A stretch of DNA of 6,921 nt, taken from a bacterium (lineage in GTDB: Bacteria; ARS69). This document shows positions 339-6,921 of the stretch, piece after piece; position 1 is the first letter of the stretch, and each line of letters starts with the position of its first letter. Both the position numbers and the translations under genes were made by a program. The notes under the pieces were generated by a model. The model made no database searches. It was not told the DNA's origin and saw only the letters and a list, made by a program, of their open reading frames with translations. The stretch covers positions 1-6,921 of the forward strand of contig JALGZO010000497.1 in NCBI GenBank assembly GCA_025774865.1. Direction: 5' to 3'.

Positions 339-1403
339 TCAGTGAAAGCGCAGGAACTGCCGCGGGATGTCGCAGCTCGCCGCGAGCTCCGCCGCGTGTT
401 CTTCGCCGTCGAACCAGTTCTCGAGTGGGGTGACACCTTCGTACAGGTGGAGCGCGGTCTGAAAGACGTAGCCGTCGCAGAGATCCCCGAGCTGGAATCC
501 CTCGCGACCGACGCTCCACCAGCTCGTTTCGCCGGGGAGCGCGGCGAAGGGCGACCCGACGACGTCGAAACCGGCCCGACGATTCTCGTCGGAGAGTCCG
601 ATCATCGATGCATCGATGTGCCCGTCGGCGGGGTAGACCCAGGGCGCGTCGCGCCCCCATCGCGATGGCCACGGGGCGTGCAGGAAGATCGTCGCGCACC
701 GCGGACCGATCTCGTCGAAGAGGAGGTTCCCGAGCCGCGCACCTTCACCGGAAGACGGTCGGAACCTCGTGAACGCGCTCTCGATGTTCGTGTAGATCAG
801 CGCCTTCTCTCCCCGAGACAGGATCTCGGTCCGTAGCACGGCAGCGTTGGCCTCGGCGTCGGCGCCGCCGAGCGCGAGGATGCGAAACGGCGTCTCCCCG
901 TCGGCTCGCGTTCGGTTCACGGTCCACGCGGCGCGGAAGAGATCGAGGTACTCCCCGTATCCCCAATGCGGGTCGTGCCGCTTTACGAGGTGGCGGGCGA
1001 GAGCGTCGTCGTAGTCGTCTGCGATCAACAGTCGATCAATGGTCTCCTGCTCCGTCGCGCTCGCGAACTCGATCCCGAGACAGTGTACGCCGGCCGCCGG
1101 CAATCGCCCGACGAGCCCGTCGACGAGGAGCACATCGTGACGGATGCGGCCGTACTCGCCGACGAAGACGATGTCGTGCGTCTCGAACTTTCCGAGTACG
1201 TAGTCCTCCGGCGGCCGGCCTCGCTCGAGAACGTGGCGGGCGAGCGCGACCTGGAGCTGGGGCTGCACGGCGGGAAGGGGCAAGCGACCCTCCGCGCAGG
1301 AGACGAGGGCCACGGCCGCGAGCGTCAGCCCCTTCCAGCGGTGGCGGTGCTTCAGGGGAAGCGCGATCAGCTCGGTTCCGGACCGCGAGGGGTCGAGGTG
1401 CAC
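339..1403 (-). CDS. Predicted lipoprotein, distantly ChaN/erythromycin-esterase-like
   Basis: This encodes about 354 residues. I place the start at a GTG at 1403 because GGAGGA (1408-1413 on the complement) precedes it by 4-5 bases. An upstream GTG at 1445 would add 14 residues with no such site and would cover the neighbour's likely -10 element. The N-terminus has a basic stretch (KHRHRWK), a short hydrophobic segment and a lipobox LVSC with Cys36, so export and lipid anchoring are likely. The core strand-then-Gly-Glu pattern (HDIVFVGE, Glu83) followed by a second strand ending IEF (Glu112) resembles the ChaN / erythromycin esterase / Tiki fold. The histidine that normally follows the GE motif seems absent (GEYGRIRH), and a later ALIYTNIESAF stretch has Glu where relatives, as I recall them, carry His. 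The hydrolase or haem-related role is therefore doubtful. The fold assignment is inference; the lipoprotein call is firmer. Confidence 0.65.
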   Translation of the reverse strand: MHLDPSRSGTELIALPLKHRHRWKGLTLAAVALVSCAEGRLPLPAVQPQLQVALARHVLERGRPPEDYVLGKFETHDIVFVGEYGRIRHDVLLVDGLVGRLPAAGVHCLGIEFASATEQETIDRLLIADDYDDALARHLVKRHDPHWGYGEYLDLFRAAWTVNRTRADGETPFRILALGGADAEANAAVLRTEILSRGEKALIYTNIESAFTRFRPSSGEGARLGNLLFDEIGPRCATIFLHAPWPSRWGRDAPWVYPADGHIDASMIGLSDENRRAGFDVVGSPFAALPGETSWWSVGREGFQLGDLCDGYVFQTALHLYEGVTPLENWFDGEEHAAELAASCDIPRQFLRFH

Positions 1404-1407
1404 CGGT

Positions 1408-1413
1408 TCCTCC
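1408..1413 (-). promoter_or_regulatory. Ribosome binding site that decides the lipoprotein gene start
   Basis: Read on the complementary strand, GGAGGA sits 4 bases before the GTG at 1403 (5 bases if the core is taken as GGAGG). The alternative GTG at 1445 has no comparable site. The same bases occupy the -35 region of the divergent VOC-gene promoter candidate, so the two control regions overlap. Confidence 0.6.
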
Positions 1414-1429
1414 GTCTCGGGGATTCGGG

Positions 1430-1435
1430 TACAAT
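1430..1435 (+). promoter_or_regulatory. Candidate -10 element of the VOC gene
   Basis: TACAAT matches the sigma-70 -10 consensus at five of six positions and would start transcription near 1442, about 57 bases before the ATG at 1499. No good -35 is visible at the right distance (TTCCTC at 17 bases is poor). Use of this site would be consistent with the divergent lipoprotein gene starting at 1403 rather than 1445. Confidence 0.45.
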
Positions 1436-1483
1436 CCTGCCACACTTCCCCGAGCGCCGCCGCCGGGAAGACCCACGGATCAG

Positions 1484-2380: not shown

Positions 2381-2800
2381 TCAGCCGCAGTGGCGATCGA
2401 ACGCGGCCGTCAGGAGACCGGCGAAATGCTCGGGGTGCGTGCCCTCGATCTCGTGGCGCTGGATCATCTCGACCATTTTCCCGTTCTTGAACAGAGCGGC
2501 CTGCGGCGAGCTCGGCGGGTAGTCGGAGAAGAGCCCACGCAGGTATTCCGTGGCCTCGATGTCCATTCCCGCGAAGGTGGTGGTGAGTCGGTCGGGGAGC
2601 TTCCCGTGACCGAGGGCGAGTGCGATCCCCGGGCGAGCGATCCCGCCCGCACAGCCGCACACCGAATTGACGAACGCGAAAACCGTCCCGCTTTCTTGCT
2701 CCACGGCGGTCTTCACTTCGCCCGGAGTTCGGAGTTCTTCGAACCCCATCTGCACCATCTCCTGCCGGAACGGGGCCACCATTTCCTCGGGATACCTCAT
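2381..2800 (-). CDS. BrxA/BrxB family bacilliredoxin (YphP/YqiW family)
   Basis: This is a 139-residue cytoplasmic thiol-disulfide protein with a thioredoxin-like fold. The hallmark is VNSVCGCAGGIARP, with the CGC active site at Cys48-Gly49-Cys50. The length is close to Bacillus BrxA (about 144 residues). Bacilliredoxins remove bacillithiol from S-bacillithiolated proteins: one cysteine attacks the mixed disulfide and the enzyme is then recycled by free bacillithiol. Both cysteines are present here. The ATG at 2800 overlaps the stop of the upstream gene as ATGA, so the two are translationally coupled, and a GGAAGAG stretch precedes the start. Family members also occur in lineages where bacillithiol or N-methyl-bacillithiol has been reported outside Firmicutes. 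No bacillithiol synthesis gene is visible in the window, so the in vivo thiol partner is inferred. Confidence 0.93.
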   Translation of the reverse strand: MRYPEEMVAPFRQEMVQMGFEELRTPGEVKTAVEQESGTVFAFVNSVCGCAGGIARPGIALALGHGKLPDRLTTTFAGMDIEATEYLRGLFSDYPPSSPQAALFKNGKMVEMIQRHEIEGTHPEHFAGLLTAAFDRHCG

Positions 2801-3081
2801 GTCTCTTCCACTCTCCTGTACTCGATGAGCCTGCGAATCGAATGGACTTCGGCGCGGGGTACTCGCACGTGGTCCGCGTTCTTGAAAACTCCGAGCTTCG
2901 CGGACCGGGCGAGCAAGTCCTCCTTCGCGACTCCCTCGTCGAGCTCGCGAATCTCCGCATCCATCAACAGAACGCCGTCCTCGTCCTCCGAGTGATACCG
3001 GCCGAGGTACAGCGTGGTTCCCTGGGTCTCCACGACGACGGTGATCCCGTGGAGGGGATCATCACAGTGCTTGCCTTTCAA
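2797..3081 (-). CDS. Small conserved-looking protein with an Sm-like (LSm) pattern
   Basis: This encodes about 94 residues and I do not recognise a named family. I prefer a TTG start at 3081, which has GGGGGG about seven bases upstream. A TTG at 3120 would add a Pro/Arg/Gly-rich stretch encoded by a GC hairpin and has no binding site. Residues 12-44 (GITVVVETQG, then LGRY, D35, VLLMDAEI) follow the alternating pattern of the Sm1 motif. HVRVPRAEVHSIRRL (71-85) could form the last two strands (Sm2). A charged, helix-prone stretch (about 45-66) separates them. There is no signal peptide or membrane segment. It overlaps the bacilliredoxin gene by four bases (ATGA), so it is probably the first gene of a two-gene operon. 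An RNA- or protein-binding scaffold is possible; the Sm call is pattern-based inference. Confidence 0.75.
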   Translation of the reverse strand: MKGKHCDDPLHGITVVVETQGTTLYLGRYHSEDEDGVLLMDAEIRELDEGVAKEDLLARSAKLGVFKNADHVRVPRAEVHSIRRLIEYRRVEET

Positions 3082-3167
3082 GGTCGTTCCCCCCGGGCGC
3101 GGCGGACGCGCCCCGGGCAATGTACCGAATCGAAGACGGATCCGCCAGCGGCCGGTCCGGCGCCGCG

Positions 3168-3205: not shown

Positions 3206-3949
3206 TTGCTGGAGCTCACCGGGATCACCAAGACCTTCGCTGGGAAGATGGCCGTTCAGGTCGGTCATCTGACGGCCCGTCGGGGGACGACGCTCATCCT
3301 CATCGGCGCCAGCGGCTCGGGGAAGTCGACCCTGCTCCGCCTCATGGTCGGACTCCTGAGGCCCGACCGCGGCTCCGTCAGGCTGGACGGGACGGAGGTC
3401 TCGCCGTCCTCGGCCGGTGAGCTCCGCCGCCGGATCGGCTACGTCATTCAGGACGGCGGGCTCTTCCCACACCTTACCGCGCGCGGCAACGTCTCTCTCA
3501 TGGCCCGGCATCTGCGGTGGCCCGGCGAGCGCGTCGAGAACCGGCTCGCCGAGCTCGTCGAGCTCACGCGGTTCCCGCCCGACGGTCTCGACCGCTACCC
3601 GGTCCAGCTCTCCGGCGGTCAGCGTCAGCGGGTGAGCCTCATGCGGGCGCTCATGCTCGACCCCGACGTCCTCTGTTTGGACGAGCCGCTCGGGGCGCTC
3701 GATCCGCTGATCCGGTCGGATCTCCAGGAGGATCTCCGACGCATCTTCCGGACTCTCGGTAAGACGGTGGTGCTCGTGACGCACGACCTGAGCGAGGCCC
3801 GGTATTTCGCGGACCGCGTCGTGCTGCTGCACGAAGGGAGTGTCGTGCAGGAAGGCGTCTTCGACGATTTGATCCAGCGGCCGTCGGATCCCTTCGTGAC
3901 GAGGTTCGTGCAGGCGCAACGGCTCGGCGCCCCGGAGGCCGAAGCGTGA
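3206..3949 (+). CDS. ABC importer ATPase, OpuC/ProV/EgtV-like, without CBS domains
   Basis: This 247-residue cytoplasmic ATPase powers the importer encoded by the next gene. All ABC motifs are intact: Walker A GASGSGKST (34-42), Q-loop Gln82, signature LSGGQ (135-139), Walker B VLCLDE (155-160), D-loop through Asp166 and switch His193. The best match is the quaternary-amine/osmoprotectant ATPase group (OpuCA, ProV, EgtV). OpuA/OpuCA-type ATPases usually carry two C-terminal CBS domains that sense ionic strength; this protein ends soon after the ATPase core, so that control seems absent. The only usable start codons at the N-terminus are TTG at 3206 or CTG at 3209, because a stop precedes them at 3182. 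The first internal ATG (3248) would remove the first core strand. There is no Shine-Dalgarno, which agrees with a leaderless mRNA. It overlaps the permease gene as GTGA. Confidence 0.93.
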   Translation: MLELTGITKTFAGKMAVQVGHLTARRGTTLILIGASGSGKSTLLRLMVGLLRPDRGSVRLDGTEVSPSSAGELRRRIGYVIQDGGLFPHLTARGNVSLMARHLRWPGERVENRLAELVELTRFPPDGLDRYPVQLSGGQRQRVSLMRALMLDPDVLCLDEPLGALDPLIRSDLQEDLRRIFRTLGKTVVLVTHDLSEARYFADRVVLLHEGSVVQEGVFDDLIQRPSDPFVTRFVQAQRLGAPEAEA

Positions 3950-5439
3950 TCGGAGTCGTCCGTCTCGCGGCCCTCGGATCGGCCGCACTCCTGGCGGCCG
4001 AGGCGGGCGCCACCGAGCTCCGCGTCGGATCGAAGAAGTTCACCGAGTCGGTGGTTCTCGGAGAAGTCCTCGCGCACCTGGCACGACAGGAAGGCGGCAC
4101 GGTCGAGCACCAACGCGAGCTCGGCGGTACGCGGATTCTCTGGAACGCGCTGGTGCGCGGCGAAATCGATGCGTACCCGGAGTACACCGGCACCATCCGC
4201 CGGGAGATCCTGGCCGGCGAAGTGGGCGAGGGGGACGACGCGCTGTCCGCGGCCCTCGCGGCGCACGGGATTCGCCGGAGCGGTTCGCTCGGCTTCAACA
4301 ATACGTACGCGATCGGAATGCGCGAGAACATCGCCGACTCGCTCGGCGTCACCAAAATCTCCGACCTGCGAGAGCATCCCGAGTTGCGTCTCGGTTTCAC
4401 GAACGAGTTCATGGATCGCGGCGACGGCTGGCCGGGGCTGCGCGAACACTACGGCCTCCCGCACGCGGCGCGCGGGCTCGATCACGATCTCGCTTACCGC
4501 GGACTCGAGAGCGGTACGATCCAGGCAATGGATCTCTATTCGACCGATGCGGAGATCCGCTACTACGGTCTGCGGGTTCTCGAAGACGATCTCGAGTACT
4601 TCCCCGAGTACTATGCCGTCGTGCTGTGGCGCGACGACCTCGCCGAGCGTGCCCCGGGAGTCGTCGCAGCGTTCCGAGGGCTCGCCGGGAACATCGGCGA
4701 AGAGGACATGGTCGCGATGAATGCGCGGGCGAAGCTCGATCGGGTGCCGGAAGCACGCATCGCCGCCGATTTCCTGGCCGAAGCTCTCGACATCACGGCC
4801 GTCACTCGAGTCGAGTCGGCCGCGGATCGCTTCCTCCGGCACACCCGGGAGCATCTGTTTCTCGTTGGGGTGTCGCTCCTTGCCGCGATCTTGCTCGCGA
4901 TTCCGCTGGGAATCGTCGCGGCCAAGAGCCCGAGGCTGGGGCAGGGGATTCTCGGCGTCACCGGCGTCATCCAGACCATTCCGTCCTTGGCGCTCCTGGT
5001 CTTCATGATCCCGCTCCTGGGGATCGGAGCGGCGCCCGCGGTCTGCGCTCTGTTTCTCTACAGCCTCCTTCCGATCGTGAGGAACACGTACGCGGGTCTG
5101 CACGACGTGTCGCTCGAGATCCGCGAATCGGCCGAGGCGCTCGGCCTGTCCCCGGGTGCAATCCTCCGTCTCGTGGAGCTGCCGATGGCCTCTCGCTCGA
5201 TTCTCGCCGGGATCAAGACGTCGGCGGTGATCAACGTCGGGACGGCGACTCTCGGGGCGCTGATCGGGGCGGGAGGCTACGGCCAGCCGATCCTGACCGG
5301 CATTCGATTGGATGACGCCGGACTGATCTTGCAGGGGGCGGTGCCGGCGGCGGGACTGGCGCTCCTGGCGCAGGGCTTCTTCGAGCTCGTGGAGCGGCGG
5401 CTCGTCCCGAAGGGCCTGCGTCTCGAGGCGCACGGCTGA
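3946..5439 (+). CDS. Fused substrate-binding/permease protein of a quaternary-amine ABC importer
   Basis: This 497-residue protein joins two importer parts in one chain. Residues 1-22 form a signal peptide. Residues 23 to about 285 are an OpuAC/OpuCC-type binding domain: LRVGSKKFTESVVLGE (25-40), YPEYTGT (77-83), GFNNTYAIGM (116-125), DLYSTDAEI (196-204) and YFPEYYAV (218-225). Its many tyrosines suit an aromatic cage for a trimethylammonium group. From about 304 to the end is a BPD_transp_1 permease with several membrane segments and an EAA loop (ESAEALG 394-400, ELP 411-413) that docks on the ATPase. The start is GTG at 3946, overlapping the ATPase stop, with GGAGG seven bases upstream. The order (binding domain first, permease second) is the reverse of OpuABC and EgtU fusions. 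Substrates could be glycine betaine, choline or carnitine. Because egtD follows, ergothioneine or hercynine is my preferred inference. Confidence 0.92.
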   Translation: MIGVVRLAALGSAALLAAEAGATELRVGSKKFTESVVLGEVLAHLARQEGGTVEHQRELGGTRILWNALVRGEIDAYPEYTGTIRREILAGEVGEGDDALSAALAAHGIRRSGSLGFNNTYAIGMRENIADSLGVTKISDLREHPELRLGFTNEFMDRGDGWPGLREHYGLPHAARGLDHDLAYRGLESGTIQAMDLYSTDAEIRYYGLRVLEDDLEYFPEYYAVVLWRDDLAERAPGVVAAFRGLAGNIGEEDMVAMNARAKLDRVPEARIAADFLAEALDITAVTRVESAADRFLRHTREHLFLVGVSLLAAILLAIPLGIVAAKSPRLGQGILGVTGVIQTIPSLALLVFMIPLLGIGAAPAVCALFLYSLLPIVRNTYAGLHDVSLEIRESAEALGLSPGAILRLVELPMASRSILAGIKTSAVINVGTATLGALIGAGGYGQPILTGIRLDDAGLILQGAVPAAGLALLAQGFFELVERRLVPKGLRLEAHG

Positions 5440-5446
5440 GCTTCCC

Positions 5447-5476
5447 TTGACACCTGGGTGCGCTCACCGCTACCGT
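5447..5476 (+). promoter_or_regulatory. Promoter candidate for egtD
   Basis: A perfect -35 TTGACA (5447-5452) is followed after 18 bases by TACCGT (5471-5476), an acceptable -10. It begins only eight bases after the importer stop codon. No T-tailed terminator is visible between the importer and egtD, so egtD may be read both from this promoter and from the importer promoter. The predicted leader is about 75 bases long and includes a small hairpin, GCCGC 5495-5499 with GCGGC 5505-5509. Confidence 0.6.
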
Positions 5477-5557
5477 CGATAGCTCGCCCGGGGCGCCGCA
5501 GCTCGCGGCTCATGGACCCCTTTCATCCCGTCGAAATCGCACCTGCCGGATCTTCTG

Positions 5558-6517
5558 ATGCCTCGTCGCCTGTCCGATCAAGCTCCCGACGTCGCGGCGA
5601 CCGCGGCCGAAGTGCTCACGGGGTTGCGCGAGAGCCCCAAGCGACTCCCCTGCAAGCTCTTCTACGACGAGCGCGGCTCGCAGCTCTTCGAGGAGATCAC
5701 GCGGCTACCGGAGTACTACCCGACGCGGGCGGAGCTCTCCATCCTGGAGACGCGGGCGTCGGAGATGGCGGCTCATCTCGGCCCCCGGTGTCTCCTGGTC
5801 GAGTTCGGCAGCGGCTCGAGCCTCAAGACGCGGATTCTGCTCGACGAGCTCGTCGAGCCGGCCGGGTACGTGCCGATCGACATCTCGAAGGAGCACCTCC
5901 TCGAGTCCGCGGCGGAGCTCGCGGCCGCCTATCCGACGCTCGAGGTCCTTCCCGTCTGCGCGGACTACATGACCGAAGTCGAGATCCCGGCGACGAAGAT
6001 CGCGCCCGCTCGCCGAACCGTCTTCTTCCCCGGGGGGACGATCGGCAACTTCCATCGCCAGGAGGCCGTCGATTTCCTCGCCCGCAAGGCGGACCTCGTG
6101 GGAGCCGGAGGAGGGCTCCTCATCGGGGTGGATCTGGACAAGGATCCCGAGGTGCTGAACCAGGCGTACAACGACTCACAGGGCGTGACGGCGGAGTTCA
6201 ATCAGAACGTTCTCGTGCGGCTGAATCGCGAGCTCGGTGCCGACTTCCGCATCGACTGTTTCCGGCACCGCGCCTTCTACGACCGCGTCGCCCACCGGAT
6301 CGAGATGCACCTCGATTGCCTCGAGGATCACGTCGTGCACGTGGCCGACGAGGAGATCGCCATCCGGAAGGGCGAGTCGATCTGGACCGAGAGCTCCTAT
6401 AAATACTCGATTCCCGACTTCCAGGACGTGGCGGTGCAGGCCGGTTGCGTGCCTTCGAAGCTCTGGACCGACGACCGCGACCTCTTCAGCATCCATTTCC
6501 TGACGAGCGAGGTCTAA
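5558..6517 (+). CDS. egtD: L-histidine N-alpha-methyltransferase EgtD
   Basis: This 319-residue cytoplasmic enzyme is close to the family norm of about 320. EgtD transfers three methyl groups from S-adenosylmethionine to the alpha-amine of histidine, giving hercynine (histidine betaine), the first step of ergothioneine synthesis. The sequence shows the N-terminal FYDERGSQLFEEIT (35-48) and PEYYPTR (51-57), the SAM-binding loop VEFGSGSSLKT (81-91), the acidic PIDIS (106-110), FFPGGTIGNF (156-165) with Asn164 at the conserved histidine-binding position, and WTESSYKY (276-283), where Glu278 and Ser280 match the histidine-recognising Glu-x-Ser of mycobacterial EgtD. All substrate residues I can place are intact, so the enzyme should be active. 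The ATG at 5558 has only a weak GGA seven bases upstream. No egtB or other egt gene is in the window; its neighbour is the importer upstream. Confidence 0.95.
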   Translation: MPRRLSDQAPDVAATAAEVLTGLRESPKRLPCKLFYDERGSQLFEEITRLPEYYPTRAELSILETRASEMAAHLGPRCLLVEFGSGSSLKTRILLDELVEPAGYVPIDISKEHLLESAAELAAAYPTLEVLPVCADYMTEVEIPATKIAPARRTVFFPGGTIGNFHRQEAVDFLARKADLVGAGGGLLIGVDLDKDPEVLNQAYNDSQGVTAEFNQNVLVRLNRELGADFRIDCFRHRAFYDRVAHRIEMHLDCLEDHVVHVADEEIAIRKGESIWTESSYKYSIPDFQDVAVQAGCVPSKLWTDDRDLFSIHFLTSEV

Positions 6518-6533: not shown

Positions 6534-6562
6534 TTGACTGACGGGGCGGTCATCCCTAGAAT
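6534..6562 (+). promoter_or_regulatory. Near-consensus sigma-70 promoter of carA
   Basis: TTGACT (6534-6539) and TAGAAT (6557-6562) are separated by 17 bases, with five of six matches at each box. This is the best promoter in the window. It begins 17 bases after the egtD stop and would start transcription near 6569, about 40 bases before the carA ATG. carA is therefore likely transcribed on its own rather than only by read-through from egtD. Confidence 0.85.
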
Positions 6563-6572
6563 CAAGCGCCCG

Positions 6573-6598
6573 GAAATGCGGGCCTTCCCCGCCATTTC
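6573..6598 (+). promoter_or_regulatory. Stem-loop in the carA leader
   Basis: GAAATG (6573-6578) pairs with CATTTC (6593-6598). After a single bulged C (6592), CGGG (6579-6582) pairs with CCCG (6588-6591) around a five-base loop CCTTC. The stem fills most of the predicted 40-base leader and stops directly before the likely Shine-Dalgarno GAGAG (6599-6603). There is no U-tract, so it is not a terminator. It may affect ribosome access or mRNA stability. Confidence 0.6.
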
Positions 6599-6608
6599 GA
6601 GAGTTCCG

Positions 6609-6921
6609 ATGCCGAGATCCGATTCCGCCGTTCTCGCCCTGGAGAGCGGCCATATTTTCGAGGGGACGGCCTTCGGCGCCACCGGAAGGGTGGAAGCGGA
6701 GGTCGTTTTCAACACCTCGATGACGGGGTACCAGGAGATCCTGACGGATCCCTCGTACTTCGGTCAGATCGTGGCGATGACGGCCCCGCAGATCGGGAAC
6801 ACCGGCGTCAACGACGACGATGCCGAGTCCGAAGGGGCCCATCTCTCCGGCTTCATCGCCCGGGAGTTCTCGCGGCGCACCTCCTCTCATCGAGCCACGG
6901 GCCCACTGGACGAATACCTCC
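6609..6921 (+). CDS. carA: Carbamoyl-phosphate synthase small subunit (partial, runs off window)
   Basis: The first 104 codons of carA are present and continue past the window edge. CarA is the glutamine amidotransferase subunit of carbamoyl-phosphate synthase. It releases ammonia from glutamine and passes it to CarB, feeding pyrimidine and arginine synthesis in the cytoplasm. The visible part is the N-terminal domain that binds CarB: LALESGHIFEGTAFGA (9-24), the diagnostic FNTSMTGYQEILTDPSY (34-50), GQIVAMTAPQIGNTGVN (52-68), and a REFS stretch near residue 90. The catalytic Cys-His-Glu amidotransferase domain would lie beyond the window. The start at 6609 has a weak GAGAG five bases upstream and a strong promoter at 6534-6562. 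carB is not visible but may follow. The identification is secure. Confidence 0.95.
   Translation, partial: MPRSDSAVLALESGHIFEGTAFGATGRVEAEVVFNTSMTGYQEILTDPSYFGQIVAMTAPQIGNTGVNDDDAESEGAHLSGFIAREFSRRTSSHRATGPLDEYL

Follow-up and report, generated by a model that had tools for sequence, protein, structure and literature searches.

Betaine-family importers encoded with egtD and egtB in many bacterial phyla: a probable branch serving the ergothioneine pathway

Why should an ATP-driven importer of the betaine family be encoded directly upstream of egtD, whose product catalyses the first step of ergothioneine synthesis? The question is raised by contig JALGZO010000497.1, a stretch of 6,921 nucleotides (the window) that is one whole contig (C501) of a 4.7 Mb metagenome-assembled genome in 785 contigs (92.65% complete, 8.3% contamination). 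The known ergothioneine importers come from bacteria that are discussed as non-makers of the compound. An earlier note on this DNA proposed, from its reading of the letters, that the importer takes up ergothioneine or hercynine. We favour, with a confidence modestly above even, the reading that it represents a separate branch of the betaine importers, one that is widespread and given over to the ergothioneine pathway, with ergothioneine as the most likely cargo and hercynine as a less likely one. The elements of the locus are as follows.

3206–3949, forward strand: ABC importer ATPase (ProV/OpuCA-like), 247 amino acids, TTG start, PF00005
3946–5439, forward strand: fused importer protein with signal peptide, N-terminal binding domain and C-terminal permease, 497 amino acids, GTG start
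4009–4812, forward strand: substrate-binding domain as modelled (residues 22–289), from an AlphaFold2 model, fold matches and alignments to Archaeoglobus fulgidus ProX (AfProX) and Streptococcus pneumoniae EgtUC (SpEgtUC)
4831–5415, forward strand: permease domain BPD_transp_1, about residues 296–490
5440–5557, no strand: gap of 118 bases between importer and egtD
5558–6517, forward strand: egtD, L-histidine N-alpha-methyltransferase, 319 amino acids, TIGR03438

The open reading frames (ORFs), their domains and a scan of the gap bear out the arrangement that the earlier note described: ATPase, fused importer and egtD lie on one strand, and no terminator-like site was found in the 118 bases at 5440–5557. 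The GTG start of the importer overlaps the ATPase stop, and this overlap of four bases suggests translational coupling. A perfect TTGACA at 5447–5452, read directly and paired with a poor −10 element, leaves room for egtD to have its own promoter in the gap. The absence of a CBS osmosensor from the ATPase also holds, as the domain scan detected no CBS domain in 3206–3949; PF00005 is its sole full domain, and its top profile match, TIGR01186, falls below its own cut-off. In the importer, a hydrophobic, signal-peptide-like stretch (residues 1–22) is followed by OpuAC (PF04069, residues 24–279) and BPD_transp_1 (PF00528, residues 318–486) in the domain scan. An Rfam search of the window matched no RNA regulator, and a search for a plasmid copy of the ATPase–importer–egtD cassette gave no near match. 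The neighbourhood is not a product of chance, since G002, a genome from another genus of the same family, keeps the gene order from a glyoxalase-like (VOC) gene to egtD – VOC (+), bacilliredoxin (−), small ORF (−), ATPase (+), importer (+), egtD (+) – with an importer that is 68% identical.

The window EgtD scores 399 bits against TIGR03438 (cut-off 290.9). Its nearest PDB EgtD matches at E 8e-60, and the eight active-site residues that were checked are all identical to those of Mycobacterium smegmatis EgtD. Identity extends to every histidine-binding residue, which we take to be numbered Y39, Y56, N166, Y206, M252, E282 and S284. EgtB is encoded on a separate contig (C158) of the same genome, at 572 bits against a TIGR03440 cut-off of 360.

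A wider survey covered 80 related loci with importers 55–70% identical to that of the window, drawn from about a dozen phyla that include Poribacteria, Nitrospinota, Latescibacterota, Acidobacteriota, Planctomycetota, Gemmatimonadota, Neomarinimicrobiota, Ignavibacteriota, KSB1, Myxococcota and Pseudomonadota. By tblastn, egtD lies within 8 kb of the importer in 26 of them, against a chance expectation of about 0.3 (16 kb in a 4 Mb genome), and in 20 of these 26 it is contiguous with the transporter on the same strand, alone or together with egtB. Homologues of egtB, 42–67% identical to the EgtB of the window genome, occur in 17 loci, and two weaker matches (30–33%) occur in others. Of six linked EgtDs that were scanned, five score above the TIGR03438 cut-off, and that of L071 falls just below it (278 bits). 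When neighbouring ORFs were clustered without guidance, egtD and egtB emerged as the two commonest families after those of the transporter itself. The linkage to egtD is thus recurrent, spans many phyla and often includes egtB, and it takes at least five gene orders, among them the following.

egtD–ATPase–importer: L007, L013
ATPase–importer–egtD: the window, L008, L020, L032, L038, L055, L088
ATPase–importer–egtB–egtD: L028, L042, L047, L059
egtB–x–ATPase–importer–egtD: L040, L043, L048 and others
divergent egtB–egtD: L016, L068, L070

Because operons with both synthesis genes recur, it is well supported that the importer serves the ergothioneine pathway. The linkage might instead reflect common descent or the horizontal transfer of one block, with no functional tie. 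Linked loci do cluster in part on a tree of 84 importers, where linkage needs 13 changes compared with 24 in shuffles, and eight Neomarinimicrobiota-type loci stand out in this respect. Nevertheless, the linkage is scattered over the tree, with at least four changes forced by well-supported branches, and gene orders and strands differ among the linked loci. Chance and one-block inheritance were both rejected on this diversity and scatter. Ancestry without function, which also leaves aside the co-occurrence of importer and egtD in genomes where they are not linked, is to our mind very improbable indeed.

That co-occurrence is substantial. Where the importer is unlinked, egtD is found elsewhere in 36 of 50 genomes, in 32 of them above the cut-off. 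The culturable Rhodanobacter thiooxydans LCS2 (L058) is an example of a carrier with egtD at another site of its genome. Among 369 evenly drawn Gammaproteobacteria, 22 carry the importer and 132 carry egtD; egtD is present in 17 of the 22 importer genomes versus 115 of the other 347 (Fisher p 9e-5, kinship not corrected). Of five genomes from the phylum of the window, four carry the importer and egtD together and the fifth lacks both. The neighbours of unlinked copies (amylase, EAL/GGDEF, nuclease, phosphatase and others) share no common theme that could hint at the cargo.

For the cargo, ergothioneine is the likeliest candidate because members of the clade are also found in genomes that lack the synthesis genes, where salvage would be the simplest role; direction, cargo and physiological purpose are all points that we infer. 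The ATPase, importer and egtD would then form one ergothioneine-pathway cassette that joins an ATP-driven importer to the first synthesis enzyme. The signal peptide would export the N-terminal binding domain, which would remain tethered to the permease and trap a trimethylated zwitterion, four tyrosines (Y80, Y121, Y198, Y222) forming a cage for its N(CH3)3 group and K30, T83 and R158 holding its carboxylate. The cargo would pass to the permease while the ATPase powers uptake, as in type I ABC importers whose binding domain is tethered. The compound taken up would probably be ergothioneine that has leaked from the cell or is present outside it, with hercynine as second choice; a producer would thereby recover a molecule that costs three S-adenosylmethionines (SAM), and in non-producers the same importer would serve for scavenging only.

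The fold has little to say on this point. The AlphaFold2 model of residues 22–289 is of high confidence (pLDDT 96.1, pTM 0.90), and its top Foldseek matches are EgtU–ergothioneine complexes, followed by sensor precursors, Helicobacter pylori EgtU and ProX. EgtU, ProX and the choline/nicotine-sensor precursor proteins all fall at Z 29–33 against the model, which is too close for fold comparison to serve as a test of specificity, and as such it was rejected. The importer has the OpuAC/ProX fold with an aromatic cage and a carboxylate site, features that ProX shares and that therefore do not discriminate. The modelled fold indicates family, not cargo.

The pocket is more informative. In SpEgtUC, the cage is formed by F293, Y341, Y419 and Y443 with N339, the carboxylate is bound by K242, T296 and R379, and the imidazole is contacted by E375 and T275; G244 is invariant in EgtU, and Phe293/Tyr337 represent a switch relative to Tyr63/Phe107 of ProX (PMC9732360). 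Gly244 lies near ordered waters round the thioimidazole, and its replacement (G244F) lowers ergothioneine affinity about 100-fold, with a smaller loss for F293Y and one of about 500-fold for E375Q (PMC9732360). Aligned to AfProX and SpEgtUC, the pocket of the window importer consists of K30, F32, T62, Y80, T83, F117, N119, Y121, E154, R158, Y198 and Y222. Its cage and carboxylate residues are retained in all aligned clade members. Several observations nevertheless weigh against the reading that we favour. The position of EgtU Gly244 is occupied by Phe (F32) in the window and in every aligned clade member; Phe293 is replaced by Tyr80 and Tyr337 by Phe117, both invariant across the clade; and F32, Y80 and F117 are the residues of the Archaeoglobus glycine-betaine ProX. 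The binding domain is N-terminal, the reverse of the order in EgtU, where it is C-terminal in the solved entries (residues 234–506 and 287–553). The importer may be the only betaine importer of the window genome, because genome-wide profile searches found neither a second OpuAC protein nor a BCCT carrier there. Finally, egtD is missing from 14 of the 50 genomes with an unlinked importer, and it is absent from the Latescibacterota genome G008 (L012), a single contig of 6.5 Mb that carries the importer. An EgtB match above the cut-off is found in only two of the 14, and one further near-full-length match lies below it.

These pocket residues are largely of the glycine-betaine type, an outcome that the earlier note had named as refuting its proposal, and identity with EgtU is not supported; what stands of the proposal is the tie to the ergothioneine pathway, carried by egtD/egtB linkage across phyla. 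A generic importer of glycine betaine or proline betaine would account for these residues, acting in osmoprotection or in the supply of methyl groups (from glycine betaine through methionine to the SAM that EgtD uses), with egtD co-located for regulation or convenience. All ten ligand-site residues checked in AfProX (K13, F15, Y63, T66, F107, Y111, E145, R149, Y190 and Y214, in a sequence that matches the PDB letter for letter) are identical in the window; only Asp109, at the base of the cage, differs, being Asn119 here and mostly Asn, sometimes Asp, in relatives. A plasmid-borne EgtU-like protein of Ligilactobacillus (L. salivarius), included as a control, shows Gly, Phe and Tyr at the EgtU positions. 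Because of the pocket, and because no other OpuAC-type importer is encoded in the genome, the glycine-betaine explanation stays a serious rival, albeit one that we consider rather unlikely. It leaves the repeated egtD and egtB operons across phyla and gene orders unexplained, and among ten operon-position neighbours of unlinked copies there is no gene of glycine-betaine or choline metabolism. Moreover, the clade keeps two residues that are found in neither AfProX nor SpEgtUC: Trp162 (Leu153 in ProX, Asn383 in EgtU) and His180 (Pro172 and Pro401, respectively) are invariant in 46 aligned clade sequences. In sequence, Trp162 is one helical turn past the carboxylate-binding Arg158, and both residues may line the cleft.

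The ProX-like residues weaken the ergothioneine reading without ruling ergothioneine out, because specificity may be different or relaxed in those members of the wider cluster that lack Gly244 and the Phe switch, and H. pylori EgtU, which belongs to the wider cluster, takes up ergothioneine with lower affinity (PMC9732360). Could the cargo be hercynine (trimethylhistidine), so that outside hercynine feeds EgtB and this one intermediate is supplied both by EgtD and through the importer? Linkage to egtD only, with no egtB, occurs at the window, L007, L013, L020, L032, L038, L055 and L071, and the pocket lacks the EgtU glycine that lies near the thioimidazole waters. However, no hercynine importer is known; EgtU offers no precedent, because the affinity of SpEgtUC for hercynine is only about 600 M^-1 (PMC9732360). 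The importer also occurs where neither egtD nor a full-length EgtB match is present, in Latescibacterota genomes (among G008 (L012), L009, L010 and L014) and at a near-identical Gemmatimonadota-titled locus. We therefore regard hercynine as an improbable cargo. These carriers without egtD are candidate pure scavengers, or else a sign of a different cargo.

Within the favoured reading, a stronger proposal is conceivable, to which we give somewhat less than even credence: these proteins may constitute a second lineage of ergothioneine importers that became specialised independently, with a ProX-type pocket, invariant Trp162 and His180 and a reversed domain order, lying at the core of ergothioneine operons in many uncultivated phyla whose producers would routinely import their own product.

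Other features of the window and of related loci are listed here.

2381–2800, reverse strand: BrxA/BrxB-family bacilliredoxin (TIGR04191, 173 bits), in the same place in G002 and G003
2797–3120, reverse strand: small ORF, family unknown, that lies between the bacilliredoxin gene and the importer; also kept in G002 and G003
6534–6921, forward strand: carA (carbamoyl-phosphate synthase small chain), 3' of egtD; 6534–6562 matches a sigma-70-like promoter well
339–1445, reverse strand: ORF of 368 residues whose one match, to the ChaN/Tiki haem-binding family, is below threshold
L009:6203–7168, L010:6218–7168, L014:3–806, L029:4690–5667: gene for a PF04463–DUF1722 fusion
L040:6173–7030, L043:6339–7184, L066:6284–7159, L075:6138–6983: DUF5996-like (PF19459) protein

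The bacilliredoxin gene and the small ORF form a pair divergent from the importer, which is found at this position in two further genera of the family as well (L122, L123) and is a second thiol-redox association of the importer. On the other side, the cassette probably ends at egtD, because carA has its own promoter match. In Latescibacterota-type loci, a fusion of 2-thiouracil desulfurase (PF04463) and DUF1722 is encoded directly upstream of the ATPase on the same strand; egtD is absent from the genomes of L009, L010 and L014 and local at L029. This neighbour may hint at thione chemistry beside the importer, ergothioneine being a cyclic thione as well. A protein of about 285 residues, weakly DUF5996-like, lies between egtB and the ATPase in Neomarinimicrobiota-type operons and, in a Calditrichota locus that has no egtD nearby, next to the importer. 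Near the contig end, at 12–253, three G+C-rich arms form imperfect inverted repeats (53 nucleotides, 77% complementary; 36 nucleotides, 89%), perhaps a small mobile or repeat element. An open frame of 602 codons runs antisense to the importer (3625–5433, reverse strand); other high-GC relatives contain comparable shadow frames, and it is probably an artefact of codon bias.

If the favoured reading is right, an importer within the biosynthetic operon means that producers, too, retrieve or share ergothioneine. The clade would provide a sequence handle on ergothioneine uptake for a dozen little-studied phyla, and the known specificity residues of EgtU would not be the sole means of binding the compound. 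If the cargo is glycine betaine, the repeated egtB–egtD linkage amounts to an unexplained tie of osmolyte uptake to thiol synthesis. A literature search of partial coverage found no described importer of this kind linked to egtD or egtB, which is weak evidence of novelty.

How does this system compare with those already known? The window EgtD matches M. smegmatis EgtD (4PIM, 4UY5) at E 8e-60 with all checked site residues kept; to our knowledge, the mycobacterial cluster is egtABCDE, without an importer of this sort. AfProX (1SW1, 1SW2, 3MAM), which binds glycine betaine and proline betaine, has the same fold, and all ten checked ligand-site residues – the four-tyrosine cage plus K13, F15, T66, F107, E145 and R149 – are present in the importer. 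It differs in being a separate binding protein and in having Asp109, Leu153 and Pro172 where the importer has Asn, W162 and H180; we know of no link of this ProX to egtD. H. pylori EgtU (8DP6, 8DP7), a second ergothioneine binder, shares the fold at 30% identity (Z about 31–32), with a C-terminal binding domain (residues 287–553) as opposed to the N-terminal one here. The best match in the PDB by both sequence (E 1.5e-37) and fold is S. pneumoniae EgtU (EgtUA/EgtUBC; 7TXK, 7TXL; PMC9732360). Both proteins have a binding domain fused to the permease and a separate ATPase, and they have in common K242, T275, T296, N339, Y341, E375, R379, Y419 and Y443 (SpEgtU numbering). Unlike SpEgtU, the importer has Phe for Gly244, Tyr for Phe293, Phe for Tyr337 and an N-terminal binding domain; judged by sequence, membership in EgtU is not supported, as the glycine, the Phe293/Tyr337 switch and the domain order all fail. 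The two also differ in their hosts: reports place EgtU almost exclusively in Firmicutes and discuss it for non-makers of ergothioneine, whereas the importer described here is found in ergothioneine producers.

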